Below are positions 3,979 through 41,142 of a stretch of DNA of 64,000 bases, one piece after another. The DNA lies in the NCBI RefSeq assembly GCF_024436435.1, contig NZ_JAFMZP010000005.1, positions 1 through 64,000 of the forward strand, given 5' to 3'. The position numbers were made by a program, and so were the translations under genes. Source of the stretch: Desertivirga xinjiangensis. GTDB lineage: Bacteria; Bacteroidota; Bacteroidia; Sphingobacteriales; Sphingobacteriaceae. Position 1 is the stretch's first letter; every line of letters begins with the position of its first letter. Under the pieces are notes generated by a model. That model made no database searches and was not told the origin of the DNA. It worked only from the letters and a program-made list of their open reading frames with translations.

Positions 3979-5102
3979 TAATAATTAATGGTTTGTTGCT
4001 GGATCTGCTCAGGAATTTCGCGGAATCCATACTGCTGATTGCGCAGCTGGGGTTCAAAGCCGGCTTCCCTGATGGATTGCTGGATGCCAGCGGATGTAAA
4101 GCGGTGCGGGGCACCTGCTGCACTCACTACATTTTCTTCGAGCATGATGGACCCAAAATCATTGGCTCCGCCATGTAAGCAGAGCTGAGCTACCTGTTTT
4201 CCTACGGTTAACCAGGAAGCCTGGATGTTTTTGATATTAGGAAGCATGATCCGGCTTAGCGCTATCATCCTGATGTATTCGTCGGCGGTTACCTGGTTGC
4301 TCACGCCACGAACCCGTTTCAACAGGGTTCCGTCATCCTGGAAAGGCCAGGGAATAAAAGCGATAAATCCTTTGGTGTCTGCGGGTTTTTCTGATTGTAC
4401 CTGTCTGATCCATACCAGGTGTTCAAAGCGCTCTTCGATGGTTTCCACATGCCCGAACATCATGGTTGCTGAACTGGAAAGTCCCAGCTGATGGGCTGCA
4501 CGCATCACGTCAAGCCATTCCTGACCTCCGCATTTTCCTTTAGAGATTAGGCGTCTTACCCGGTCGTTCAGGATTTCTGCACCAGCGCCGGGAAGTGAAT
4601 CGAGTCCGGCGTCCATTAAAGCCTTCAGAACTTCAGTATGCGAAAGTCCGTCAAGTTTCGCGATGTGAGCGATTTCGGGTGGACCAAGTGAATGTAATTT
4701 CAGGGTAGGGTAGAGCTGTTTCAGTTGCTTAAACAGGTCAGTATAAAATTGCAGGCCCAGATCGGGATGGTGGCCCCCCTGAAGCAGCAGCTGATCGCCG
4801 CCAAACCTGAAGGTTTCCTCGATCTTTATTTTATAAGTTTCTATATCGGTAATATAGCTGTCGGCATGACCTGGCCTTCTGAAGAAGTTACAGAATTTGC
4901 AGTTAGCAATACAAACGTTAGTTGTATTAACATTGCGGTCAATCTGCCAGGTTACTTTGCCGTGTGGTACCTGTTTTTTTCTTAGTTCGTTGGCTACATA
5001 CATCAATTCAGATGTAGCAGCATTTTTAAACAAATAAACGCCTTCGTCTATAGAAAGAAAGTCGAAGGCAAGAGCCCTTTGCAGCAAATCCTGTGTGTTC
5101 AT
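3978..5102 (-). CDS. mqnC: cyclic dehypoxanthinyl futalosine synthase (radical SAM)
   Basis: Radical SAM enzyme of the futalosine route to menaquinone; it cyclises dehypoxanthinyl futalosine. The cluster-binding motif CIANCKFC (C-x3-C-x2-C) follows WQIDRNVNTTNV, a stretch typical of MqnC rather than of MqnE or of CofH of F420 synthesis. Next come RRPGHADSY and LLQGGHHPDLG. The 374-residue length is normal. It sits 35 bases after the YpdA-like gene and overlaps the response regulator by one base. No other mqn gene is in the window. MqnE is the main alternative and looks less likely. Confidence 0.88.
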   Translation of the reverse strand: MNTQDLLQRALAFDFLSIDEGVYLFKNAATSELMYVANELRKKQVPHGKVTWQIDRNVNTTNVCIANCKFCNFFRRPGHADSYITDIETYKIKIEETFRFGGDQLLLQGGHHPDLGLQFYTDLFKQLKQLYPTLKLHSLGPPEIAHIAKLDGLSHTEVLKALMDAGLDSLPGAGAEILNDRVRRLISKGKCGGQEWLDVMRAAHQLGLSSSATMMFGHVETIEERFEHLVWIRQVQSEKPADTKGFIAFIPWPFQDDGTLLKRVRGVSNQVTADEYIRMIALSRIMLPNIKNIQASWLTVGKQVAQLCLHGGANDFGSIMLEENVVSAAGAPHRFTSAGIQQSIREAGFEPQLRNQQYGFREIPEQIQQQTINY

Positions 5103-5137
5103 CGATACAAAGATAAGCAGTGTTTGTGAGATAAGGA

Positions 5138-6124
5138 CTAGGTGTTGTTAATATGGTTAATATGGCTGATATGCTGGATGATCTTTACGGCGTGTTCTCG
5201 TGAATTTTCAATAAAAAGAGTGTGTGTATTCATTCCTCCGCAGACTACTCCGGCCATATATATCCCGGGGATGTTGGTTTCCATGGTGTCCTGATTGTAG
5301 ACGGGCAGCTGATTTTCGTCCAGGGAACACTCTATTCCGACTTCTTTGAGGAAACTAAAGTTAGGCCGGTAGCCCGTCATGGCCAGCACGAAGTTATTTT
5401 TGATGGTTACTTTACCGGAGGGGGTGTTGATGTCAATTTCCCCCGCACGGATTTCCGTTATTTCAGAATTGAAATACGCTTTGATACTGCCTTCGGCGAT
5501 GCGGTTCTCTATATCTGGCCTAACCCAATATTTAACGTTTTTACCGATTCCATCACCCCTTACGATCATAGTTACTTCAGCACCTTTTCTGTAGGTTTCG
5601 AGGGCAACGTCTACGGAAGAGTTACTTGAGCCGATCACAGCGATCTTTTGCATGGCGAAATAATGGGGATCGTGATAATAGTGATATACGTTAGGCAGGT
5701 CTTCTCCAGGTATATTAAGGTAGGCCGGGATATCATAGAATCCGGTGGCAATTATCACGTTTTTTGCCTGGTAAGTTTGTTTTGCTGATTCTAATGTAAA
5801 GGTTCTATGTGCTTTGTTAACCGAGTAAACTTCTTCAAATAAACGCACATTCAGGTTAAAGTGTAAAGTAACACGACGGTAGTATTCAAGGGCTTCTGCC
5901 CGCCTGGGTTTTGGATTGATAGACGCAAAGGGGAGGCCGCCTATTTCCAGGCGTTCTGATGTAGAAAAGAAGGTCATGTTTACCGGGTAGTTGTAAAGGG
6001 AGTTAACCAGGCAACCCTTTTCGATAATTGTATAGGACAGACCTGCTTTTACGGCTTCGATTCCGCAGGCGAGGCCGATGGGGCCGGCACCAATAATTAC
6101 CAGGTCGAGTGTATTGTTTTCCAT
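5138..6124 (-). CDS. ypdA: YpdA-family FAD/NADPH disulfide reductase-like protein
   Basis: Flavoprotein of 328 residues related to YpdA, the putative bacillithiol disulfide reductase. An FAD-binding GAGPIGLACG lies at residues 12-21, the family mark CLVNSLYNYP near residue 38, and a second nucleotide-binding VIGSSNSSVDVAL near residue 183. YpdA proteins lack the CxxC of thioredoxin reductases, and so does this one. The cysteine expected in the first glycine-rich loop of firmicute YpdA (GxGPC) is Ile16 here, though Cys20 is close. Thus the fold is firm but the bacillithiol role is inferred. It shares a strand and close spacing with mqnC; a terminator separates it from the upstream aldolase. 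Confidence 0.8.
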   Translation of the reverse strand: MENNTLDLVIIGAGPIGLACGIEAVKAGLSYTIIEKGCLVNSLYNYPVNMTFFSTSERLEIGGLPFASINPKPRRAEALEYYRRVTLHFNLNVRLFEEVYSVNKAHRTFTLESAKQTYQAKNVIIATGFYDIPAYLNIPGEDLPNVYHYYHDPHYFAMQKIAVIGSSNSSVDVALETYRKGAEVTMIVRGDGIGKNVKYWVRPDIENRIAEGSIKAYFNSEITEIRAGEIDINTPSGKVTIKNNFVLAMTGYRPNFSFLKEVGIECSLDENQLPVYNQDTMETNIPGIYMAGVVCGGMNTHTLFIENSREHAVKIIQHISHINHINNT

Positions 6125-6140
6125 ATTTACTAAGAAACAA

Positions 6141-6164
6141 AAAAAGCCGCTTGGAGCGGCTTTT
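6141..6164 (-). terminator. terminator after the transaldolase-like gene
   Basis: Stem AGCCGCT / AGCGGCT with a three-base loop, flanked by A-run and T-run on opposite sides, so it can act in both directions. It lies 20 bases after the aldolase stop and before the YpdA-like gene. Confidence 0.8.
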
Positions 6165-6183
6165 GAGATATTATTTTCTTTAA

Positions 6184-6843
6184 CTATTTGCCGGCAGCTT
6201 TTGCGTGGTCAGCTAAAAATTGCGCTAATCCGTTGTCTGTTAAAGGGTGTTTTAATAACCCCGTAATTGCAGAAAGAGGAGCAGTAATAACATCAGCACC
6301 TAATTTAGCGCAGTTAATAATGTGCATAGGGTGACGTACTGACGCTGCAAGGATCTCTGTTGTATAGCCGTAGTTATCAAAGATTGTACGGATGTCTTCG
6401 ATCAGGGTTAAGCCATCTGTAGAAACATCATCTAAACGTCCGATAAAAGGCGATACATAGGTAGCACCTGCTTTAGCTGCTAATAAAGCCTGTCCGGGTG
6501 AGAATATTAATGTACAGTTGGTACGGATTCCTTTTGAAGTGAAGAATTTGATTGCTTTAACGCCGTCTTTGATCATCGGCACTTTAACCACAATCTTTTC
6601 ATGAAGTTTCGCTAATTCAAGGCCCTCGGCTACAATTTCATCGTAAGTAGTGGCAATAACTTCTGCACTAACATCGCCATCAGTGATCTCGCAGATAGCT
6701 TTATAGTGGTTTATTACATTTTCCTGGCCTGAAATTCCTTCTTTAGCCATTAGGCTTGGATTGGTGGTAACGCCATCAAGAACACCCAGGTCATGAGCTT
6801 CTTTAATTTGAGCAAGGTTTGCTGTATCGATAAAAAACTTCAT
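6184..6843 (-). CDS. fsa: fructose-6-phosphate aldolase / transaldolase, TalC-FSA type
   Basis: Small class I aldolase of 219 residues, matching the short FSA/TalC branch of the transaldolase family. It begins [20 protein letters not shown], has the family mark [14 protein letters not shown], and a Schiff-base Lys in [11 protein letters not shown]. These enzymes either cleave fructose 6-phosphate or transfer dihydroxyacetone; the sequence alone does not decide which. It is the first gene of a minus-strand series and is followed by a terminator. Confidence 0.9.
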
Positions 6844-6944
6844 TTTTTTATATAAAAGATTAAAACAGAATCAACTTAGAGACAAGTGCCAGATTTGTTT
6901 TTTATTAAGTTTATGATTTTGATTCTGGCAGAAGAAAAAAAAGT

Positions 6945-7043
6945 GGGCTAGCCCCTTCTATCGCACCGCTACGACTCTTTACCCTTGCTTCGTTCCCGCC
7001 CTGGGGGAGTTCAAGAGGAGCTGGTCGTAGAAGACTAACCCGG
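6945..7043 (-). ncRNA. ffs: signal recognition particle RNA, small bacterial (4.5S) type
   Basis: The minus strand carries the conserved SRP domain IV core: GGGCGGGAACGAAGCAAGGG, equivalent to the GGUCCGGAAGGAAGCAGCC tip. The ends pair: GGGTTAG with CTAGCCC and CTTCTA with TAGAAG, then CTACGAC with GTCGTAG, which makes one long hairpin of about 99 bases. It is followed by eight T (6942 to 6935) and preceded by a perfect -7 box. The RNA acts with Ffh in membrane targeting. No protein gene fits the stretch. Confidence 0.88.
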
Positions 7044-7045
7044 CG

Positions 7046-7053
7046 CAAAAGTA
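7046..7053 (-). promoter_or_regulatory. Bacteroidota -7 box of the SRP RNA gene
   Basis: TACTTTTG on the minus strand matches TAnnTTTG perfectly and ends a few bases before the predicted RNA 5' end. I see no convincing -33 TTTG. Confidence 0.65.
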
Positions 7054-7156
7054 AGAACTTTTGAATACTTACCTAATTAAATTTGAAAATAAATTGGGGG
7101 GGAAGAAAAGGGAGTTTTTTTTAGTTTCTAGGGACAGGAGGTACAGTGAGGCTTTG

Positions 7157-7310
7157 CACACGCGGCACGCACGCATGCGCCATGTCTTTAAGTTAAGAGA
7201 TCCAATAGTTTGATCAGCGTTGTCCATAGTCTGTAGCCGGGGTTAAGCGCGAGTGATCCTTCAGAACACTAAGGACAGAAGAGACAGAAGAAGCAGACGT
7301 GCCGCGTGTG
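7157..7310. repeat. MITE-like intergenic element, copy A
   Basis: A 154-base stretch bounded by perfect 13-base inverted ends, CACACGCGGCACG (7157-7169) and CGTGCCGCGTGTG (7298-7310). Inside is a second inverted pair, TGTCCATAGT (7221-7230) and ACTAAGGACA (one mismatch). The blocks 7227-7253 and 7255-7278 recur on the other strand at 14382-14507. It contains no open frame of note. Interpretation as a mobile or REP-type element is inference. Confidence 0.6.
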
Positions 7311-7604
7311 TCTAATAGTCAATGGTAAGGATGCGTAACAGGTTCAAATGAGGTTTGTGAGGATTGTAAAAATATGATGGATATCATATAAATAACATTA
7401 TGAAAGCTCAAAACATATGAAATTGTTTTCAGAAAAGTGCACTTCGTTTGTGAAACTCTCAAATTTAGTGAAAGCAGTTTTGTTAATATTATAATAAAAT
7501 AGTGTTAAATTTAGTAAATTTATAAATGCGAGACTGTAAGGGTGTTTTGTTTTGAAGAAAACGTAAAAATCATTGTTTAGTCGATAATTTTGACGTAAAA
7601 TCTG
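7311..7604. other. intergenic stretch, no gene seen
   Basis: AT-rich leader between the repeat element and the gltB promoter. I see no credible open frame, RNA fold or terminator. Confidence 0.5.
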
Positions 7605-7612
7605 TACTTTCG
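7605..7612 (+). promoter_or_regulatory. probable gltB promoter -7 box
   Basis: TACTTTCG matches TAnnTTTG with one mismatch and lies 22 bases before the gltB ATG. A -33 element is not clear. Confidence 0.45.
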
Positions 7613-7633
7613 TGAATTACCATTATAATTCTG

Positions 7634-10600
7634 ATGAAGCAAACCGGAAATGACCAGCAGGGATTATATCGCCCTGAATTTGAACACGACTCTTGTGGAG
7701 TAGGTTTTATTACGAACATAAATGGCCATAAGTCGCACCAAACTGTATCAGATGCTTTAACTATTCTGGAGAATATGGAGCATAGAGGTGCATGTGGCTG
7801 TGATCCTGAAACAGGTGATGGTGCCGGTATTCTTTTACAGATACCTCATGAGTTCCTTATGGAAGAGTGTATTGGATTAGATATCCACCTTGCTGAACCT
7901 GGCCATTATGGCGCAGGAATGGTTTTCTTCCCGAAGGAGATCAATGCAAAGGAAGCCTGTCGTGCAGCTGTAGTTAGTGCTGCAGACAAGTTAGGCTTAC
8001 CTCTTTTAGGCTTTCGTAAGCTTCCTGTGAACCCTGGTGTAGTTGGAGAGACAGCTCTTGCCGTAGAGCCTGATGCGGAGCATTTATTTATAGGCCGTCC
8101 AGCAAATGTTGTAAGTGTAGAGGATTTTGAGAGAAAGCTGTACGTATTAAGACGTTTGATTACAAAAACGATTAACGAAACGGTTAACAATGGCAGCGAT
8201 TTTTATATTGCTTCTTTGTCAAGTCGTATTCTCGTTTATAAAGGACAGTTAACTACTTATCAGTTACGCCAATACTATCTTGACCTTCAGGATAGCAGAT
8301 TGACTTCTGCTTTCGGGATGGTTCACAGCCGTTTCTCTACAAATACGTTTCCATCGTGGAAACTGGCTCAGCCTTTCAGGATGATGGCCCACAATGGCGA
8401 AATCAATACACTTACAGGAAATCTTAACTGGTTTTATGCGGGTTTGAGATCTTATGCATCTTCTTTCTTCACGGCAGAAGAGATGGATATCGTTCTTCCT
8501 GTTATAGATAAGAACCAGTCAGATTCAGCCTGTTTAGATAACGTAGTTGAAGTATTAGTTAATACAGGCCGTTCATTACCTCATGTAATGATGATGCTTG
8601 TGCCGGAAGCATGGGATGGCAATGAGCATATGGAGCCCTTGAAGAAAGCGTTCTATGAGTTTCACGCTACTTTAATGGAACCATGGGATGGTCCGGCGGC
8701 ATTAACGTTTACTGATGGTAAGCAGATCGGTGCTTTGCTTGACAGAAATGGTCTTCGTCCGTTGCGTTACGCTACAACCAGCGATAACCGCGTGATCGTT
8801 GCGTCTGAAGCCGGTGCTTTGCCGATCGACGAGAAGCTGATCATTCAAAAAGGGCGTCTTCAGCCAGGAAAAATGTTGCTGATTGACATCGTTGAAGGAA
8901 AGATCATCACCGACGAGGAGATTAAAACCAAAATTGCAAGCAGCCAGCCTTATGCTGAGTGGCTTGAAAATTATAAGATCAGAATTGAAGAGCTTCCAGA
9001 ACCAAGGGTAGCCTTTACCAACCTGTCAAAAGATGCAGTTCACAAATACCACCAGGTATTTGGATACAGCCGCGAGGATATCGAAACTATCATTAAGCCA
9101 ATGGCTGTTGATGGAAAAGAGCCTATCGGTTCTATGGGAACGGATGTGCCATTAGCGGTTCTTTCAGACAGACCTCAGCATCTCTCCAGCTACTTTAAGC
9201 AGTTCTTTGCTCAGGTAACCAACCCGCCGATAGATCCTATCCGTGAGCGAATGGTAATGAGTTTGGCTACTTTTATCGGCAGTAACGGAAACCTGTTTGA
9301 TGAAGACAAAATGCATTGCCATTGCGTTGCATTGCAACAGCCTATTTTGACCAATACCGAGTTGGAAAAACTCAGAAGTATTGATACAGGTATGTTTAAT
9401 GCTAAAACACTTCAAACATATTTCAAAGCAGACGGTCAGCCTGGTTCTCTTCAAAAAGGACTTGAGCGGCTGTGCCGCTACGCTGAGGATGCAGTTAATG
9501 ATGGTTTTGAAGTCCTTATACTTTCTGACCGTGCGGTTGACTCTCAGCATGCACCTATCCCATCTTTATTAGCTGTTTCTGCCGTACATCACCACCTTAT
9601 TAAAAAAGGATACCGCGGACAAGTTGGTTTGGTGGTAGAAGCAGGGGATGTTTGGGAAGTACACCACTTTGCATGTCTGCTAGGCTTTGGTGCTACTGCT
9701 ATTAATCCATACCTCGCTTTAGAGACTATTCATGCTCTGAAAGAAGAAGGTAAACTGGAGACTTCGCTGGAGTTCAAATACCTTTCAAAGAACTATATCA
9801 AATCTGTATGTGACGGATTATTGAAGATCTTCTCTAAGATGGGTATCTCTACCTTACAGTCTTATCAGGGAGCACAGATATTTGAGATCCTTGGTATCAG
9901 CAGAGCGGTAGTTGACAAATATTTTGTTGGCGCGGTAACTCGTATAGAAGGTCTTGGCCTTGACGAGATAGCAAAAGAAACATTATTTAAACATAATAAC
10001 GGATTTATATCAAAAGCTGAGTACCAGTTATTGCCTGAAGGTGGTATCTACCAGTGGAAGCGCCGTGGTGAAGCTCACTTATTTAATCCGCAAACGGTTC
10101 ACTTGCTGCAGCAGGCAGCACGTACTGGTGATTACAGCGTATATAAGAGTTACGCCAAATTAATCAATGAGCAGGATGAGAAAATGTACACACTTCGTGG
10201 CTTATTCGATTTCGCTCATCATCGCGAACCGGTGCCATTGGCGGAAGTAGAGTCTGCTTCTTCAATCATGAAGCGTTTTGCTACAGGAGCAATGTCGTTT
10301 GGCTCAATTTCACACGAAGCTCACAGTACCCTGGCTATTGCTATGAACCGTATCGGTGGAAGAAGTAATACAGGAGAGGGTGGTGAAGATGAGATGCGTT
10401 ATGAAGTGCTTCCTAACGGAGATTCTATGCGTTCATCGATCAAACAGGTTGCGTCGGGTCGTTTCGGTGTAACTTCTTACTACCTGACTAATGCTGATGA
10501 GCTTCAGATCAAAATGGCTCAGGGTGCAAAACCAGGTGAAGGAGGTCAGTTACCTGGCGATAAAGTGGATCCATGGATTGCTAAAGTACGTCACTCCACT

Positions 10601-12151
10601 CCTGGAGTAGGTTTAATTTCTCCTCCTCCGCACCACGATATTTATTCAATCGAGGATTTGGCCCAGCTGATCTTCGACCTGAAAAATGCTAACCGTGCTG
10701 CACGTATCAACGTGAAGCTTGTGTCTAAAGCTGGTGTAGGTACTATCGCTGCCGGGGTGGCTAAGGCTCATGCTGATGTGATCCTGGTTGCAGGTTACGA
10801 TGGCGGAACAGGAGCTTCTCCGATCAGTTCCATCAAACATGCCGGTTTACCTTGGGAACTTGGTTTAGCTGAAGCGCACCAAACATTGGTTCGCAACAAG
10901 TTAAGAAGCCGTGTAGTTCTTCAAACTGACGGTCAGCTTAAAACCGGACGCGACATTGCTATTGCAGCTTTACTTGGTGCAGAAGAATGGGGCGTTGCAA
11001 CAGCAGCGCTTGTTGCGGGTGGATGTATCATGATGCGTAAGTGTCACCTGAATACCTGTCCGGTTGGGGTAGCTACTCAGGACCCTGAACTACGTAAGTT
11101 ATTCAGCGGTAAGCCAGAACATATCGTTAACTTATTCAACTTCATTGCTGAAGAGTTACGTGAAATCATGGCTGATCTTGGGTTCAGAACGATCAATGAG
11201 ATGGTCGGCCGCGCTCAATTCCTTAAAGTAAAGGAGAGCAATTTACATTGGAAGACAAAAACGCTTGATCTTTCGGCGATATTATTTCCGGTTACTAATC
11301 CGTCTAAGCAAACACTTTACAACAGCGAGGCGCAGGATCATGGAATGGCTAATATCATCGACTGGCAACTGCTTTCTCAGGCTCAGCAGGCTATAGAAAA
11401 TAAAACTCCTGTATTCGGTTCATTTACAGTTAAAAATACTGACCGTACCATAGGAACAGTTCTTTCAAACGAAGTTTCAAAAGTATATAAAGGTGCTGGT
11501 TTACCAGATAATACCATCAACTATAAGTTCAGCGGTTCTGCTGGGCAGAGTTTTGGAGCCTTTGCTGCAAAAGGTTTATCCTTTGAGCTTGAAGGTGAGG
11601 CAAACGACTATGTAGGTAAAGGTTTATCAGGTGCCAGGTTAGCTATTTATCCATCAGCAGACAGTTCTCTGGTCCCTGAAGACAATATCATCATTGGTAA
11701 CGTTGCACTTTACGGTGCCACTTCCGGTGAGCTTTTTGTAAGAGGCCAGGCTGGTGAACGTTTCGCTGTGCGTAACTCCGGAGCTACTGCGGTAGTGGAA
11801 GGAGTAGGTGATCACGGTTGTGAATACATGACTGGTGGCCGGGCCTTGATTCTGGGTAAAACCGGAAGAAACTTTGCTGCAGGTATGAGTGGTGGTATTG
11901 CCTGGGTTTACGATGTGGACGGTAATTTTGCAGATTACTGTAATCCGGAGATGGTTGATCTGGATCCCCTGACTTCTGACGATGAGGAGCAGATCAACAG
12001 CTTGTTACGTAAACATATTCAGCTGACACAGAGTCACCTTGGATTATTCCTTTTAAGTAACTGGGCTGAAGAATCCAGGAAGTTTATTAAGGTTTTCCCT
12101 AAAGAGTATAAAAAAGTATTACAACACGCACAATTTCAACCAGCTAATTAA
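7634..12151 (+). CDS. gltB: glutamate synthase, large (alpha) subunit
   Basis: Makes two glutamates from glutamine and 2-oxoglutarate together with GltD; cytoplasmic ammonium assimilation. It is 1505 residues, the usual length. A 20-residue propeptide precedes Cys21 (DSCGVGF), the nucleophile of the class II glutamine amidotransferase domain (about residues 21-430). The FMN-binding synthase domain covers about 850-1200, with the 3Fe-4S cysteines in CIMMRKCHLNTCPVGVATQ. The C-terminal beta-helix domain is marked by GEANDYVGKGLSGARLAIYP. gltD begins two bases after its stop. Confidence 0.97.
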   Translation: MKQTGNDQQGLYRPEFEHDSCGVGFITNINGHKSHQTVSDALTILENMEHRGACGCDPETGDGAGILLQIPHEFLMEECIGLDIHLAEPGHYGAGMVFFPKEINAKEACRAAVVSAADKLGLPLLGFRKLPVNPGVVGETALAVEPDAEHLFIGRPANVVSVEDFERKLYVLRRLITKTINETVNNGSDFYIASLSSRILVYKGQLTTYQLRQYYLDLQDSRLTSAFGMVHSRFSTNTFPSWKLAQPFRMMAHNGEINTLTGNLNWFYAGLRSYASSFFTAEEMDIVLPVIDKNQSDSACLDNVVEVLVNTGRSLPHVMMMLVPEAWDGNEHMEPLKKAFYEFHATLMEPWDGPAALTFTDGKQIGALLDRNGLRPLRYATTSDNRVIVASEAGALPIDEKLIIQKGRLQPGKMLLIDIVEGKIITDEEIKTKIASSQPYAEWLENYKIRIEELPEPRVAFTNLSKDAVHKYHQVFGYSREDIETIIKPMAVDGKEPIGSMGTDVPLAVLSDRPQHLSSYFKQFFAQVTNPPIDPIRERMVMSLATFIGSNGNLFDEDKMHCHCVALQQPILTNTELEKLRSIDTGMFNAKTLQTYFKADGQPGSLQKGLERLCRYAEDAVNDGFEVLILSDRAVDSQHAPIPSLLAVSAVHHHLIKKGYRGQVGLVVEAGDVWEVHHFACLLGFGATAINPYLALETIHALKEEGKLETSLEFKYLSKNYIKSVCDGLLKIFSKMGISTLQSYQGAQIFEILGISRAVVDKYFVGAVTRIEGLGLDEIAKETLFKHNNGFISKAEYQLLPEGGIYQWKRRGEAHLFNPQTVHLLQQAARTGDYSVYKSYAKLINEQDEKMYTLRGLFDFAHHREPVPLAEVESASSIMKRFATGAMSFGSISHEAHSTLAIAMNRIGGRSNTGEGGEDEMRYEVLPNGDSMRSSIKQVASGRFGVTSYYLTNADELQIKMAQGAKPGEGGQLPGDKVDPWIAKVRHSTPGVGLISPPPHHDIYSIEDLAQLIFDLKNANRAARINVKLVSKAGVGTIAAGVAKAHADVILVAGYDGGTGASPISSIKHAGLPWELGLAEAHQTLVRNKLRSRVVLQTDGQLKTGRDIAIAALLGAEEWGVATAALVAGGCIMMRKCHLNTCPVGVATQDPELRKLFSGKPEHIVNLFNFIAEELREIMADLGFRTINEMVGRAQFLKVKESNLHWKTKTLDLSAILFPVTNPSKQTLYNSEAQDHGMANIIDWQLLSQAQQAIENKTPVFGSFTVKNTDRTIGTVLSNEVSKVYKGAGLPDNTINYKFSGSAGQSFGAFAAKGLSFELEGEANDYVGKGLSGARLAIYPSADSSLVPEDNIIIGNVALYGATSGELFVRGQAGERFAVRNSGATAVVEGVGDHGCEYMTGGRALILGKTGRNFAAGMSGGIAWVYDVDGNFADYCNPEMVDLDPLTSDDEEQINSLLRKHIQLTQSHLGLFLLSNWAEESRKFIKVFPKEYKKVLQHAQFQPAN

Positions 12152-12153
12152 TT

Positions 12154-13626
12154 ATGGGAAAAGTGACAGGATTTAAGGAATACGCAAGAGAGCTTCCTTC
12201 AAAAAGATCTCCTGAAGAGCGTATTAATGATTATAAAGAATTCGTAGCATTATATCCGGAAAATAAGTTAAACGAGCAGTCTGCTCGTTGTATGAATTGC
12301 GGTGTGCCTTTTTGCCACAACGGTTGTCCGCTAGGAAATATAATTCCTGAATTTAACGATGCGGTTTATAAAGAGAACTGGGAAGAGGCTTACCGCATTT
12401 TATCTTCCACTAATAACTTCCCTGAATTTACAGGAAGGATCTGCCCTGCACCATGCGAGTCTGCATGTGTGTTGGGAATTAACAAGCCGGCAGTTGCTAT
12501 CGAGGAGATTGAAAAACATATTATCGAGATCGCATTCTCTAAAGGTTTTGTTACCTCAAAGGCTCCTCTTATCCGGAGCGGCAAAACGGTAGCTGTTGTA
12601 GGATCTGGTCCTGCAGGATTAGCTGCTGCTGCTCAGTTAAATAAAGCCGGGCACCTGGTGACGGTATTTGAGCGCGACGAAAAGGCCGGTGGTCTTGTAC
12701 GTTTCGGTATTCCTGACTTCAAACTTGAAAAATGGGTTGTTGAACGTCGTGTACAGTTAATGGAGGAAGACGGCATCATATTTAAATACGGCATTGAAGT
12801 AGGAAAGGATCTTTCTGCAGATGAACTTTTAAAATCTTTCGATGCAGTGGTTTTAGCCGGAGGATCAACCATTCCGCGTAATTTACCTGCACCGGGACGT
12901 GAGTTGAAGGGAGTGTATTATGCGATGGAATTCCTTAAACAACAAAACAAACGTGTAAGCGGAATTCCTTTTACAGAAGAAGAAATCCTGGCTACAGATA
13001 AGGATGTTATTGTAATTGGTGGTGGTGATACAGGTTCTGACTGCGTTGGAACTTCTAACCGTCATAAGGCGAGATCAATCACTCAATTCGAATTAATGCC
13101 GATGCCTCCGAAGGACCGTACGGAGAGTATGCCATGGCCTACGTACCCTATGCTTTTAAAAACTACATCTTCTCATGAAGAGGGTTGCGAGCGTGCTTGG
13201 GCAGTTAGTACCAAGGAATTCGTTGGCGATGCTGATGGCAATCTTACTGGTGTAAGGGTAGTAGATGTTGAATGGGAAACTGACGTATTCGGTCGCCCGG
13301 TGAAGTTTCAGGAAGTTGAAGGTTCTGAGCGTGTTTTACCTGCTCAAAGGGTATTCCTGGCGATGGGTTTCCTTCATCCTCAAAAACAAGGCTTGTTGGA
13401 GCAACTGGGTGTGGAACTTGACGAACGTGGAAATGTTAAAGCCAAAGAAGGTTTGTACAAGACAAGCGTGGATAAGGTTTTCGCTGCAGGCGATATGAGA
13501 AGAGGTCAGTCGCTGGTGGTTTGGGCTATTTCCGAAGGCCGCGAAGCTGCAAGAAGGGTAGATCTTTTCCTTACAGGAACTACATTCCTTGAAAGCAAAG
13601 ACGCTGAGAGCATGTATGCTTTCTAA
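12154..13626 (+). CDS. gltD: glutamate synthase, small (beta) subunit
   Basis: Passes electrons from NADPH to GltB. It is 490 residues. The N-terminal iron-sulfur region has CMNCGVPFCHNGCPLGN and CPAPCESACVLGIN, followed by an FAD site VAVVGSGPAGLAAAA (near 147) and an NADPH site VIVIGGGDTGSDCVGTS (near 287). It forms an operon with gltB, with two bases between them, and a strong terminator follows. Confidence 0.96.
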   Translation: MGKVTGFKEYARELPSKRSPEERINDYKEFVALYPENKLNEQSARCMNCGVPFCHNGCPLGNIIPEFNDAVYKENWEEAYRILSSTNNFPEFTGRICPAPCESACVLGINKPAVAIEEIEKHIIEIAFSKGFVTSKAPLIRSGKTVAVVGSGPAGLAAAAQLNKAGHLVTVFERDEKAGGLVRFGIPDFKLEKWVVERRVQLMEEDGIIFKYGIEVGKDLSADELLKSFDAVVLAGGSTIPRNLPAPGRELKGVYYAMEFLKQQNKRVSGIPFTEEEILATDKDVIVIGGGDTGSDCVGTSNRHKARSITQFELMPMPPKDRTESMPWPTYPMLLKTTSSHEEGCERAWAVSTKEFVGDADGNLTGVRVVDVEWETDVFGRPVKFQEVEGSERVLPAQRVFLAMGFLHPQKQGLLEQLGVELDERGNVKAKEGLYKTSVDKVFAAGDMRRGQSLVVWAISEGREAARRVDLFLTGTTFLESKDAESMYAF

Positions 13627-13658
13627 TAAATGGTACTAAATCAGAATGGTAATATTAA

Positions 13659-13686
13659 AGCCTGCTTCAAAGGAGCAGGCTTTTTT
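13659..13686 (+). terminator. gltBD terminator
   Basis: Stem AGCCTGCT / AGCAGGCT with a seven-base loop, then six T. It lies between convergent gltD and the methyltransferase gene. Confidence 0.88.
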
Positions 13687-13687
13687 G

Positions 13688-14224
13688 TTAATAGTTGAAG
13701 TTGATTTTGGCGAAGAAGTCCCAAAGGACCACACCAGCGGATACTACGATGTTGAAAGAGTGTTTTGTTCCGAACTGGGGGATTTCAATACAGCCGTCTA
13801 TTTGTTTCATCGCTTCTTCGGATACTCCATTTACTTCATTGCCAAAGATAAGGGCGTATTTTTCTTCTGCTAATGGTTTGAAATCATTTAAGCTGGTACT
13901 ATTCTCAGCCTGCTCTATGGCTATGATCTTGTAATGGCTTTGTTTAAGCTCAGTTATTGCTTCTACGATATCTTCATAGTAGTACCAGTCTATAGATTGC
14001 GTAGCGCCGAGGGCGGTTTTTTCTATCTCACGGTGTGGGGGCTGGCCGGTTATGCCGCAGAGGATGATCCGTTCAACCGCGAAACCATCGGATGTTCTGA
14101 AGATTGAGCCCACATTGTGCAGGCTTCTGACACTGTCAAGGATCACCGTTACAGGCAGTTTTTCCTGTTTTTTGAAATCGTCAACACTGACACGGTTTAA
14201 TTCGTCGAGTTTTAATTTACGCAT
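13688..14224 (-). CDS. SpoU/TrmH-family RNA 2'-O-methyltransferase
   Basis: 178-residue SPOUT methyltransferase. All three family motifs are visible: motif 1 LHNVGSIFRTSDG, motif 2 ALIFGNEVNGVS, motif 3 IEIPQFGTKHSFNIVVSAGV. It methylates the ribose of a tRNA or rRNA nucleotide using SAM. There is no extra N-terminal RNA-binding domain, as in short TrmH or TrmL forms, so the target base cannot be told. It is a single gene facing gltD. Confidence 0.9.
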   Translation of the reverse strand: MRKLKLDELNRVSVDDFKKQEKLPVTVILDSVRSLHNVGSIFRTSDGFAVERIILCGITGQPPHREIEKTALGATQSIDWYYYEDIVEAITELKQSHYKIIAIEQAENSTSLNDFKPLAEEKYALIFGNEVNGVSEEAMKQIDGCIEIPQFGTKHSFNIVVSAGVVLWDFFAKINFNY

Positions 14225-14274
14225 ATATAAAGGCGGATGTTAGCCGAATCCGGGGATTCTAAATTTATTTCTTC

Positions 14275-14354
14275 CTCATCCTGGACTTGTTTCAGGACCT
14301 CTTGAGTTAAACATGGTTCAAGAGGTGCCGAAATAAATTCGGCATGACGGAATG
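14275..14354. repeat. dispersed repeat family 2, copy A
   Basis: Two short hairpins in a row: TCCTGGACTTGTTTCAGGA and GCCGAAATAAATTCGGC. The same arrangement recurs at 20574-20653. It directly abuts element family 1 on its right. Confidence 0.7.
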
Positions 14355-14363
14355 ACGATACAC

Positions 14364-14549
14364 CGTCCTTCGTCTGTTTGTCTGTCCTTAGTGTTCCGAA
14401 GGATCTGACTCGCTAAAGCGCTATGTTTAATGCCTAACGAGTCAGAGATTCTTTTTTTATTGGACAATCCTTATTCCCTGGCGCGCTTTGCCCCAGGCTA
14501 CAGACTAAGGACAGTGCGGTTTTATTGGGCGCACGCGTGCCGCGTGTGC
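14364..14549. repeat. MITE-like intergenic element, copy B (reverse orientation)
   Basis: Reverse-oriented relative of 7157-7310. A perfect inverted pair CTGTCCTTAG (14382-14391) and CTAAGGACAG (14505-14514) encloses a hairpin CTGACTCG / CGAGTCAG (14405-14445) that copy A lacks. One end carries CGTGCCGCGTGTG (14536-14548). The other expected end is missing, and the sequence runs into repeat family 2. No gene fits 14225-14581. Confidence 0.6.
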
Positions 14550-14581
14550 TTAACCATAGCAATCTTCACCGCCATCACTTC

Positions 14582-15739
14582 CTAGTTTGGTAATTCAATA
14601 ACACCCGGACCTATTTCAGAGCTATACACCGAAGGCGCGTAGCCTATTTTCTCAGTATAGTATTCCGTGATCTCTTTACTGAACGTCTCAAAGGAATCTT
14701 TTTTAACCAACGCAATAGCACATCCGCCAAAGCCTGCACCTGTCATTCTTGCACCGGTAACATCAGGGAAGTTTAAACAGAATTCCACAATGGTGTCAAG
14801 CTCAACTCCTGATACCTCGTACAGGTTTTTAAGTGAGTCATGCGAGGCATACATCAGCTGACCAAAATCCTGTAAACGATTTTCTGCAAGCGCTTTGGCG
14901 GCGAGTATTACCCGCTCGTTTTCTTCCACGACGTGTTTGGCCCTGTTTAGAACAATTGGATCTGATATGAGATGTTTATTTTTATCGAAAGTTTCAGAAT
15001 CAATATCACAAAGGTTGGCAATGTTCAAGTTTTGCTGCAGTTCGCCGAGTGCTGTAGAACATTCCTGAACGCGTTCGTTATACTTAGATTCTGCGAGTTT
15101 ACGAGGTTTGTTCGTATTAATTATAGCAAGGTAATGATCGCCCAGATCGCAGTCTACCGCTTCATAGTCAAGCGTTTCACAGTTTAATTTGAGTGCTTTA
15201 CCAGCTTCTCCAAAGGTGACTGCAAACTGATCCATGATACCTGAATTTACTCCGATAAACTCATTCTCTACTTTTTTTGTCAGTTTAACCAGATCTAGCT
15301 TTGAGATGCCTCCCTTGAAAAGCTGATCAAAAGCAAAGGCGGTAACAACTTCTACAGAAGCAGAAGAAGATAAACCAGCTCCAATAGGAAGGTCGCCGTA
15401 GAACAAGAGGTCAAGTCCCTGTAGTCTTACTCCCTGGGCTAGCAGGTTGTGTATAACCCCAAGGGGATAATTATACCATTCTTTTCCTGTTTTCTGGTAA
15501 CTGTCTTGCAATGGAATATCAAGAGTTTCTTCAAAGTTTGTACTTCTAAAGCGGAATACCCCATCGTTATTAGGTGCTGTTAAAAGATAGGTTCCAAAGG
15601 TGACCGCACAAGGCAGTACAAGTCCGCCGTTGTAGTCAATGTGTTCACCTATTAGGTTCACTCTGCCTGGTGCAAAAAAAGAGTTTTTACTTTCCTGGCC
15701 GAATAGATTTGAAAATTGGTGTTTCAGGCTGTCTAACAT
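14582..15739 (-). CDS. galK: galactokinase
   Basis: ATP-dependent galactose 1-kinase of the Leloir pathway, GHMP fold. It has the substrate motif PGRVNLIGEHIDYNGG, the ATP loop LPIGAGLSSSASVEV and the C-terminal MTGAGFGGCAIAL. The frame opens at a GTG at 15775, but a perfect -7 box lies between it and the ATG at 15739. That GTG would lie upstream of the transcript, so the ATG start (385 residues, close to the usual 380-390) is right. No other gal gene is adjacent; a LacI-type regulator gene lies upstream on the same strand. Confidence 0.95.
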   Translation of the reverse strand: MLDSLKHQFSNLFGQESKNSFFAPGRVNLIGEHIDYNGGLVLPCAVTFGTYLLTAPNNDGVFRFRSTNFEETLDIPLQDSYQKTGKEWYNYPLGVIHNLLAQGVRLQGLDLLFYGDLPIGAGLSSSASVEVVTAFAFDQLFKGGISKLDLVKLTKKVENEFIGVNSGIMDQFAVTFGEAGKALKLNCETLDYEAVDCDLGDHYLAIINTNKPRKLAESKYNERVQECSTALGELQQNLNIANLCDIDSETFDKNKHLISDPIVLNRAKHVVEENERVILAAKALAENRLQDFGQLMYASHDSLKNLYEVSGVELDTIVEFCLNFPDVTGARMTGAGFGGCAIALVKKDSFETFSKEITEYYTEKIGYAPSVYSSEIGPGVIELPN

Positions 15740-15756
15740 GTTGTTTGAAATGAGCC

Positions 15757-15764
15757 CAAAGGTA
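15757..15764 (-). promoter_or_regulatory. galK promoter -7 box
   Basis: TACCTTTG on the minus strand, a perfect TAnnTTTG, with TTG 18 bases upstream as a -33. Transcription would begin near 15750, so galK has a very short leader. A CGTTTAAACG palindrome at 15821-15830 lies further upstream and may be a regulator site. Confidence 0.65.
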
Positions 15765-15914
15765 ACAAACTTCACAAATTATCAATGAATTTTCCAGATG
15801 ATTTTCTTTCCCAAAAACCGCGTTTAAACGTGTGTTATTGAATAAAATAGGTTTCAATTTCAAATGGTGTAAAAAATACACGAAGTAGGGGAAAAAACTA
15901 AGCGCGATAAATGA

Positions 15915-16940
15915 CTATTCGCCTAGCCGTTTAGATGAAGAACGAACTATTAATATTGGCTCAAGTATTACTTTTTTTGGAGACGGGTTAGTTTTTTCCT
16001 GCTTATTCAATTCCAGAAAAAGCCTGGCGGCCTCTTCTCCCATGGTAATGGTTTGCTGGGCAATGGTAGACAACTGAGGAGTTACGAGGCTGCCAAAGGC
16101 CTCGTTAGCAAAGCCGATCACTCCAACCTGTTCTGGTATCTTTATGCCTGATTCCATCAGTTGCTGCATTACACCCATAGCGGTATAATCTTCGAGAGCA
16201 AATACGGCATCAAAATCGCAACCCTCAGCAAGCAGTTCTTTGACGATGTTTCTTCCGAACTCCAGAGAAAAGTTTCCTTTCACGACTAGCTTTTCATCCA
16301 CAGGAATGCCATAATGCTCCAGGGCATCCATGTAGCCTAGTAACCTTTCTTTGAAAATAGAGAGGTTTTGTTCGGCTGTAATATGCAGGATCCTTCGGTA
16401 GCCTTGTTTTATCAGATGTTCAGTGGCAATAAAGCCGCCTTTGTAGTCGTCAATAGTTACCGAAGAGACTGGCATGGTTTCGAGTATGCGGTCAAAGAAT
16501 ACCAGAGGTGTGTTTCTTTTTTTGATTTCCTGGTAAGCATCGTCATTATTATCGGTGTCTAGGGTGACCGATGCTATGATACCGTCAACTCGCGATTGAA
16601 GAAAAGTGTCGATGCCTTTGGCCTGATGTTTTTTAGATTCATTAGATTGGTAAAGCAATATGTTGTAGCCGTTGGCATTCATTATCTTTTCAATACCGTG
16701 AACAACTGAACTGAAAAAGCTGACATGCAAACTTGGTACAATAACTCCGATAACGTTTGAACGGCCGGAACGAAGGGAGGAGGCCAGTTTATTTTGTCTG
16801 TAGTTTAGTCGTTCGGCAGTCTCCCTGACGGCTTTTTTTGTAGCATCACTAATTGCCGGATGATCATTTAAGGCCCGGGCAACCGTTGAAAACGTTATGT
16901 TTAATTCTTTAGCAATGTCAAGTATGGTAACTCTTTTCAA
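15915..16940 (-). CDS. LacI-family transcriptional regulator, probable xylose operon repressor
   Basis: 341 residues. The N-terminal HTH (VTILDIAKELNITFSTVARALN, about 4-25, then a hinge helix NKLASSLRSGRSNVIG) is followed by a periplasmic-binding-like effector domain (IGVIVPSLHVSFFSSVVHGIE, GIIASVTLD, VDGI). It is divergent from xylBA with 136 bases between, so the likely effector is xylose or a derivative. It may also act on galK, which lies downstream on the same strand. The effector assignment is from context only. Confidence 0.85.
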   Translation of the reverse strand: MKRVTILDIAKELNITFSTVARALNDHPAISDATKKAVRETAERLNYRQNKLASSLRSGRSNVIGVIVPSLHVSFFSSVVHGIEKIMNANGYNILLYQSNESKKHQAKGIDTFLQSRVDGIIASVTLDTDNNDDAYQEIKKRNTPLVFFDRILETMPVSSVTIDDYKGGFIATEHLIKQGYRRILHITAEQNLSIFKERLLGYMDALEHYGIPVDEKLVVKGNFSLEFGRNIVKELLAEGCDFDAVFALEDYTAMGVMQQLMESGIKIPEQVGVIGFANEAFGSLVTPQLSTIAQQTITMGEEAARLFLELNKQEKTNPSPKKVILEPILIVRSSSKRLGE

Positions 16941-17010
16941 AATGCGATGTTGCTGGAGTTCAAAAGTGCAAATAATTTATAAATTTTTGGGCTTTATAAA
17001 TATTCCTGCA

Positions 17011-20573: not shown

Positions 20574-20653
20574 GTCATCCTGAAGTTGTTTCAGGATCTT
20601 GTGCGTGAGCATACAATTAGTTCAAGGATGCCGAAATAAATTCGGCATGACGA
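20574..20653. repeat. dispersed repeat family 2, copy B
   Basis: GTCATCCTGAAGTTGTTTCA followed about 45 bases later by GCCGAAATAAATTCGGC and ATGACG. Same order and spacing as 14275-14354. It lies in the convergent gap between the OmpA-like gene and the outer-membrane gene. Confidence 0.7.
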
Positions 20654-41115: not shown

Positions 41116-41142
41116 CGCACGCGGCACGCGTGCCGCGTGTGC
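41116..41142. repeat. palindrome of the family-1 element ends
   Basis: CACGCGGCACG (41118-41128) directly followed by its exact complement (41129-41139), a perfect 22-base palindrome. Each half is the end of the 7157-7310 element, here with no interior. It lies in the gap between the DUF2795 gene and the next small gene. Confidence 0.7.

Follow-up and report, generated by a model that had tools for sequence, protein, structure and literature searches.

The window, a stretch of 64,000 nucleotides from Desertivirga xinjiangensis, carries two short repeat-bearing blocks, the first of which, block A (7156-7310), lies between a small SRP RNA on its left and, on its other side, a gene that we take to be gltB. 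The RNA, a short way to the left of the block, belongs to the Bacteroidales small SRP family (RF04183; 98.8 bits, E = 3.7e-20; 6941-7048, minus strand) and was the only match to reach the gathering score when positions 5000-17000 were scanned for known RNA families. No such family covered block A or block B, and four weak matches elsewhere in this interval all fell below the gathering score. We found no plasmid DNA similar to block A.

The perfect 13-base inverted ends that the initial annotation gave to block A are present at 7157-7169 and 7298-7310. With up to two mismatches, this end occurs at five sites in the window against 0.34 expected, and none of 100 shuffles reached five. The same annotation described an inner inverted pair and interior blocks that recur on the other strand at a second place, block B (14383-14549). 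We located this 10-base pair in both blocks, at 7221-7230 and 7268-7277 in block A and at 14383-14392 and 14504-14513 in block B, which has its inner parts in common with block A on the opposite strand. The inner 10-mer alone had no significance within the window (six matches with at most one mismatch, a number reached by 17 of 100 shuffles). Block B has a single 13-base end (14536-14548) and is not enclosed by such ends. A core hairpin that had been noted as present in block B and lacking in block A was borne out, and from comparison with longer copies in the genome, the middle of block A looks deleted. Folded as single-stranded DNA, both blocks were more stable than their shuffles (z of -3.07 for block A and -3.78 for block B, with 0 of 200 shuffles equally stable in each case).

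Both blocks resolve into units of two families of dispersed palindromic repeats, REP I and REP II (Table 1). Block A consists of a REP I unit, a linker, an internally deleted REP II pair, and an inverted REP I unit, and block B of one REP I unit and a partly deleted REP II pair, beside a CGTC-tagged REP dimer. The window holds two dimers of this class, the one beside block B and another at about 20583-20647, with the motifs GCCGAATTTATTTCGGC and TTGTTTCAGGA; they belong to neither REP I nor REP II but make up a third family.

Table 1. Repeat units identified in the 64-kb window
Feature	Position	Strand	Remarks
Block A, left REP I unit	7156..7181	+	Tag side degenerate
Block A, linker	7182..7220	n/a	Common to a composite at C19:738 kb (contig 19), 85% over 86 bp
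Block A, REP II pair without core	7221..7277	-	One end hairpin apparently fused to half of the other; deletion suggested by comparison
Block A, right REP I unit	7298..7310	-	Inverted orientation, truncated
CGTC-type REP dimer adjoining block B	14274..14349	+	Tags CCTC and CGTC, assigned by eye; tag classes as described in PMC3733652
Block B, REP II pair	14383..14513	+	Part of left unit missing; core stem at about 14404-14451
Block B, single REP I unit	14529..14549	-	
Further REP I site	41116..41141	n/a	26-base palindrome formed by fusion of two REP I units

The search for further copies that the initial annotation had proposed found many, dispersed through the genome. In the assembly that contains the window (G000; 5.5 Mb, 26 contigs, 99.98% complete), REP I, CACACGCGGCACGCGTGCGCYAGCA, has 86 copies at up to three mismatches, the search string CACACGCGGCACGCGTGCGCNAGCA giving 86 matches against 0 for its control. 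The 11-mer of the block A ends, CACGCGGCACG, occurs 76 times exactly against once for the reversed control, and the REP II core, AAGAGTCTCNGACTC, matches 63 times with at most one mismatch against 2 for the control. Block A with its flanks matched at least 12 other places in G000 at E <= 0.001, block B among them (40 of 82 candidates scored). Because the genome counts of both families so exceed those of the reversed controls, we rejected a chance repeat and a repeat confined to the window.

The REP I unit forms a short stem, GCACACGCG-GCA-CGCGTGCGC, with a three-base loop, followed by YAGCA. Its fold was no stronger than that of shuffled sequences on the given strand (33 of 200 as stable) and somewhat stronger on the other (9 of 200). 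The GT[AG]G tag that canonical REPs carry at the hairpin foot is absent from REP I, and the conserved extension is instead YAGCA (TGCTRG on the other strand). We set aside a covariance model of REP I (R1), which had only three base pairs. At two loci, L045 and L085, terminator-like hairpins adjoin REP I, and by eye their arms look matched well past the A/T tract. The string CACACGCGGCACG was not found in the literature searched, and no title devoted to REPs was among the matches listed for Mucilaginibacter palindromic repeats. We looked for partners of 73 REP I copies (up to five mismatches, within about 170 bp; a set in which L061 and L062 count as one and the three exact block A and block B units are not included), and 21 had a facing partner, 1 a diverging one, and 51 were single.

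REP II has a different plan, in which CTGTCC precedes a hairpin whose sequence varies, followed by GGATTC, an A-rich segment, and a small palindrome, GAGTCTCNGACTC; the units often stand in inverted pairs flanking a core. The sequence of the end hairpin differs among copies, with its pairing kept. We examined 15 hairpins, comprising 12 from G000 (13 strings, minus two overlapping frames, one without part of the stem, and one from L002, plus three added) and 3 from relatives (four strings minus one overlapping frame). In this alignment, which has three rows one column out of register, 93.2% of 118 cells were paired compared to 76.9% in shuffles, and a shift of 1 to 3 columns lowered pairing to 24-47%. 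Changes on both sides were seen in 14 cells, against a shuffled mean of 3.7 and with 0 of 500 shuffles as high; the count of pairs with two-sided change, 4, was weaker, being reached by 32 of 500 shuffles. A 30-base sequence that leads into REP II was found at five separate places among the collected loci, with 0-1 mismatch and beside whole or partial REP I units, and thus some REP I/REP II composites seem to have spread as units. A composite search of G000 gave at least 19 matches (15 of 132 own-genome candidates scored).

RAYTs (REP-associated tyrosine transposases) are single-tyrosine HuH nucleases related to the IS200/IS605 transposases, and the REP I unit is linked to genes of this kind in relatives. 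The exact REP I 24-mer occurs in 54 stretches of named genomes from Pedobacter, Mucilaginibacter, metagenome-assembled genomes (MAGs) of Sphingobacteriaceae and other Bacteroidetes, Fulvivirga imtechensis, and two Cyclobacteriaceae MAGs. A RAYT match lies within 250 bp of the 24-mer in 10 of the 54 stretches (one being the locus of relative G013 again), and anywhere in the stretch in 13. At seven loci, REP I units with up to three mismatches flank an intact or broken RAYT on both sides within 170 bp: L143 (from G013; the same as L104), L262, L211, L243, L241, L220, and L263, the last with a broken RAYT. The geometry is constant, with an inverted unit before the RAYT gene and a direct unit after it, the latter 21-46 bp behind the gene in six loci and 96 bp in L220. 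Partial bracketing was seen in P. terrae (L258) and M. rivuli (L239). Because selection of the loci rested on an exact REP I match, identity on one side is by construction; however, the second, unselected unit in the seven loci has 1 to 3 mismatches, few enough to suggest that the RAYT recognizes it. The RAYTs bracketed in this way, from Sphingobacteriaceae, Fulvivirga, and Cyclobacteriaceae, are 55-78% identical to the G013 RAYT.

In the aligned RAYT proteins, H60 and H62 make up the HuH motif and Y144 the Y motif. The G013 protein passes the NCBIfam model NF047646, "REP-associated tyrosine transposase" (95.8 bits, cut-off 80), which matches all nine aligned RAYTs at E <= 0.001. The best match to a solved chain was TnpArep (4er8), a weak one (E = 0.00017). 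In a tree of 48 of the 54 RAYT pieces (six under 100 amino acids omitted, those of L263 kept), the 11 rows that have a REP I copy no more than 200 bp away make up one side of a branch (support 100/98, with the bootstrap not fully settled), most named rows having been found via REP I and the numbered-genome rows via RAYT likeness. REP I lay within 200 bp in 0 of the other 37 rows, among which L188 lacks its downstream flank.

REP II is linked to a RAYT of its own. In G013, it brackets a different, broken RAYT, with the downstream unit represented by the end hairpin only, and it adjoins RAYT pieces in G012, G034, and G003. In G023, a short, decayed REP II end stands beside a RAYT remnant, as judged by eye. 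REP II core counts in relatives, at 0 to 4, were close to those of the control (0 to 2). The CGTC-type repeat (family III) was also tried as the REP of a RAYT; scanning the collected RAYT flanks for it with a simple motif turned up no convincing copy.

G000 itself yielded no RAYT by Pfam PF01797, by a search with the G013 RAYT protein, or with a profile built from nine RAYTs (E <= 10), although a RAYT in a piece left out of the 26-contig assembly could be missed. The nine-RAYT profile also found none in the same-genus genome G001 and 13 fragmentary matches in the other, G002; broken RAYT pieces of G002 lie on contigs 3 and 13 (L300-L307). Thus, the earlier remark that no transposase explains the conservation holds for G000, but not for relatives, where a RAYT sits beside the same repeats, and the RAYT-type transposase with matching ends that had been suggested as a target for searches was found in relatives with the repeats at both sides, with none within G000. 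Among 49 genomes, REP I copies with up to three mismatches occur in six (86 in G000, 6 in G013, 4 in G020, 2 in G002, and 1 each in G003 and G027). REP I is therefore most abundant in a RAYT-free genome, so its copy number does not track the enzyme across these genomes. Because no RAYT is detectable in G000, its REP populations appear orphaned. Loss of a RAYT with its REPs left behind has been proposed in PMC3686654.

Taken together, blocks A and B are very probably mosaic copies of two families of repetitive extragenic palindromes (REPs), each serving as substrate for a separate, cognate RAYT, and the RAYTs were presumably lost later. By analogy with the E. coli and Pseudomonas systems, a RAYT would have recognized the REP in its folded, single-stranded form and cleaved it, and would have copied or moved inverted pairs (REPINs) to sites between genes. 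The model for single-strand cleavage at the foot of the hairpin is E. coli TnpA_REP (PMC8266576), and that for the movement of inverted pairs is the REPIN (PMC3116915). REP II pairs would have ended up within REP I pairs, with some composites spreading as units, and the subsequent loss of the RAYTs would have left an orphaned, slowly decaying REP population.

The copies lie mostly between genes. Of 65 REP I sites beyond the window, 34 are convergent, 22 tandem, 4 divergent, 4 within an ORF, and 1 at a stretch edge, by crude ORF calls (simple longest-ORF picks) that place 60 of the 65 between genes. Among 1,280 random positions in the same stretches, 1,087 lie within ORFs, 62 are convergent, 77 tandem, 33 divergent, and 21 at an edge. 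Block A, between the small SRP RNA and gltB, belongs to the rare divergent class. In the same-genus genomes G001 and G002, the DNA before gltB and after galK is element-free; blocks A and B are absent there, and G001 has no REP I copy and G002 two degenerate ones, not at the block A and B places. The copies are thus neither lacking elsewhere nor always in one syntenic place, the two findings named beforehand as speaking against a mobile element. Absence from G001 and G002 fits gain in G000 or loss in those genomes alike. The empty sites gave no base-exact insertion junctions, because the intergenic DNA is too diverged in both.

The repeats could be kept today as bidirectional terminators, mRNA stabilizers, or gyrase sites at the ends of genes, with copy number reflecting selection instead of past transposition. 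Convergent placement of 34 of 65 sites compared to 62 of 172 random intergenic positions would fit such a role, as would the 17 of 22 tandem sites that lie closer to the 3' end of the upstream gene and the pairing of the REP II end hairpins, kept through two-sided change. However, two-sided changes can also arise when template switching copies one arm onto the other, and a host function leaves both the RAYT linkage and the near absence of REP I from the same-genus genomes unexplained. We consider this explanation unlikely. A RAYT-free genome might also keep, and partly renew as composites, its two REP families through host work at gene ends or through another enzyme, the hairpins staying paired by two-sided change despite the loss of their transposases; this seems to us quite unlikely.

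Several REP I copies lie at the center of copy-specific palindromes: 4 of 73 have at least 10 extra positions with one mismatch allowed, compared to 2 of 5,256 cross-paired controls. The extra stems so counted were 14 positions in L032, 12 in L053, 13 in L086, 6 in L099, and 10 in L100. PMC3733652 describes REPs within palindromes in three other bacteria. The palindromes may be targets or else products of fold-back copying. Together with the lack of a RAYT match in G000, they would suit a spread without RAYTs, by hairpin-primed template switching or recombination between copies. Such a course is very unlikely given that REP I brackets RAYTs 55-78% identical to that of G013, with so few mismatches in the second unit.

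The initial annotation called block A MITE-like or REP-like, and the second term stands, with many dispersed copies and a RAYT at the same repeats in relatives, whereas a classical MITE, with target-site duplications and 13-bp terminal inverted repeats and derived from an insertion sequence of the DDE type, is scarcely credible despite the perfect 13-bp ends of block A and the lack of a recognized gene inside, as the 13 bp belong to a unit that is itself a hairpin, is mostly without a recognizable partner (51 of 73), and adjoins RAYT genes in relatives, a linkage that explains the ends; target-site duplications are not expected of IS200/RAYT-type enzymes.

The mosaic-REP reading places the blocks among known systems. 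In E. coli BIMEs, REPs of alternating orientation are combined with other motifs to form mosaics. The G000 mosaics likewise combine alternating REPs with other motifs, but differ in joining REPs of two different RAYTs. Like REPINs (PMC3116915), they include inverted REP doublets between genes, of repeats that are RAYT-linked in relatives; unlike REPINs, only 22 of 73 REP I copies in G000 have a recognizable inverted partner, a share below that reported in PMC3116915 for Pseudomonas, and a second REP family occupies some of the spacers. The dimer beside block B resembles the CGTC-tagged REPs of PMC3733652 in ending in CCTC and CGTC tags, both of the CGTC class, which that paper reports from Bacteroidetes among others and describes as having no dedicated transposase. 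This element is a neighbor of block B and part of neither REP I nor REP II.

The closest counterpart is subclass 2.6 of PMC6006769, given there as group 5 of Bertels et al. 2017, to which we assign these RAYTs from their phylum, the missing tag, and the spacing instead of with the profiles of that paper. The subclass is mostly from Bacteroidetes, and its RAYT genes have on their flanks atypical hairpins that lack GT[AG]G and also occur elsewhere in the genome; the paper describes classes 2.6 and 3 as lacking this tag, and it describes REP pairs as well. The median HuH-to-Y distance in subclass 2.6 is 82 amino acids, as is the distance from H62 to Y144 in the G013 RAYT. G000 differs from the subclass as described in having two such REP families and zero RAYTs. 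Judged by sequence comparison, blocks A and B can be read as falling within a known kind of REP whose population in G000 is orphaned.

For the REPs of Bacteroidota RAYTs, which have been poorly described, concrete sequences are now at hand. G000 holds two sizeable REP populations without a detectable RAYT, whereas its relatives hold few REPs with intact or broken RAYTs. This contrast is a natural test of the decay of REPs after enzyme loss, as proposed in PMC3686654.
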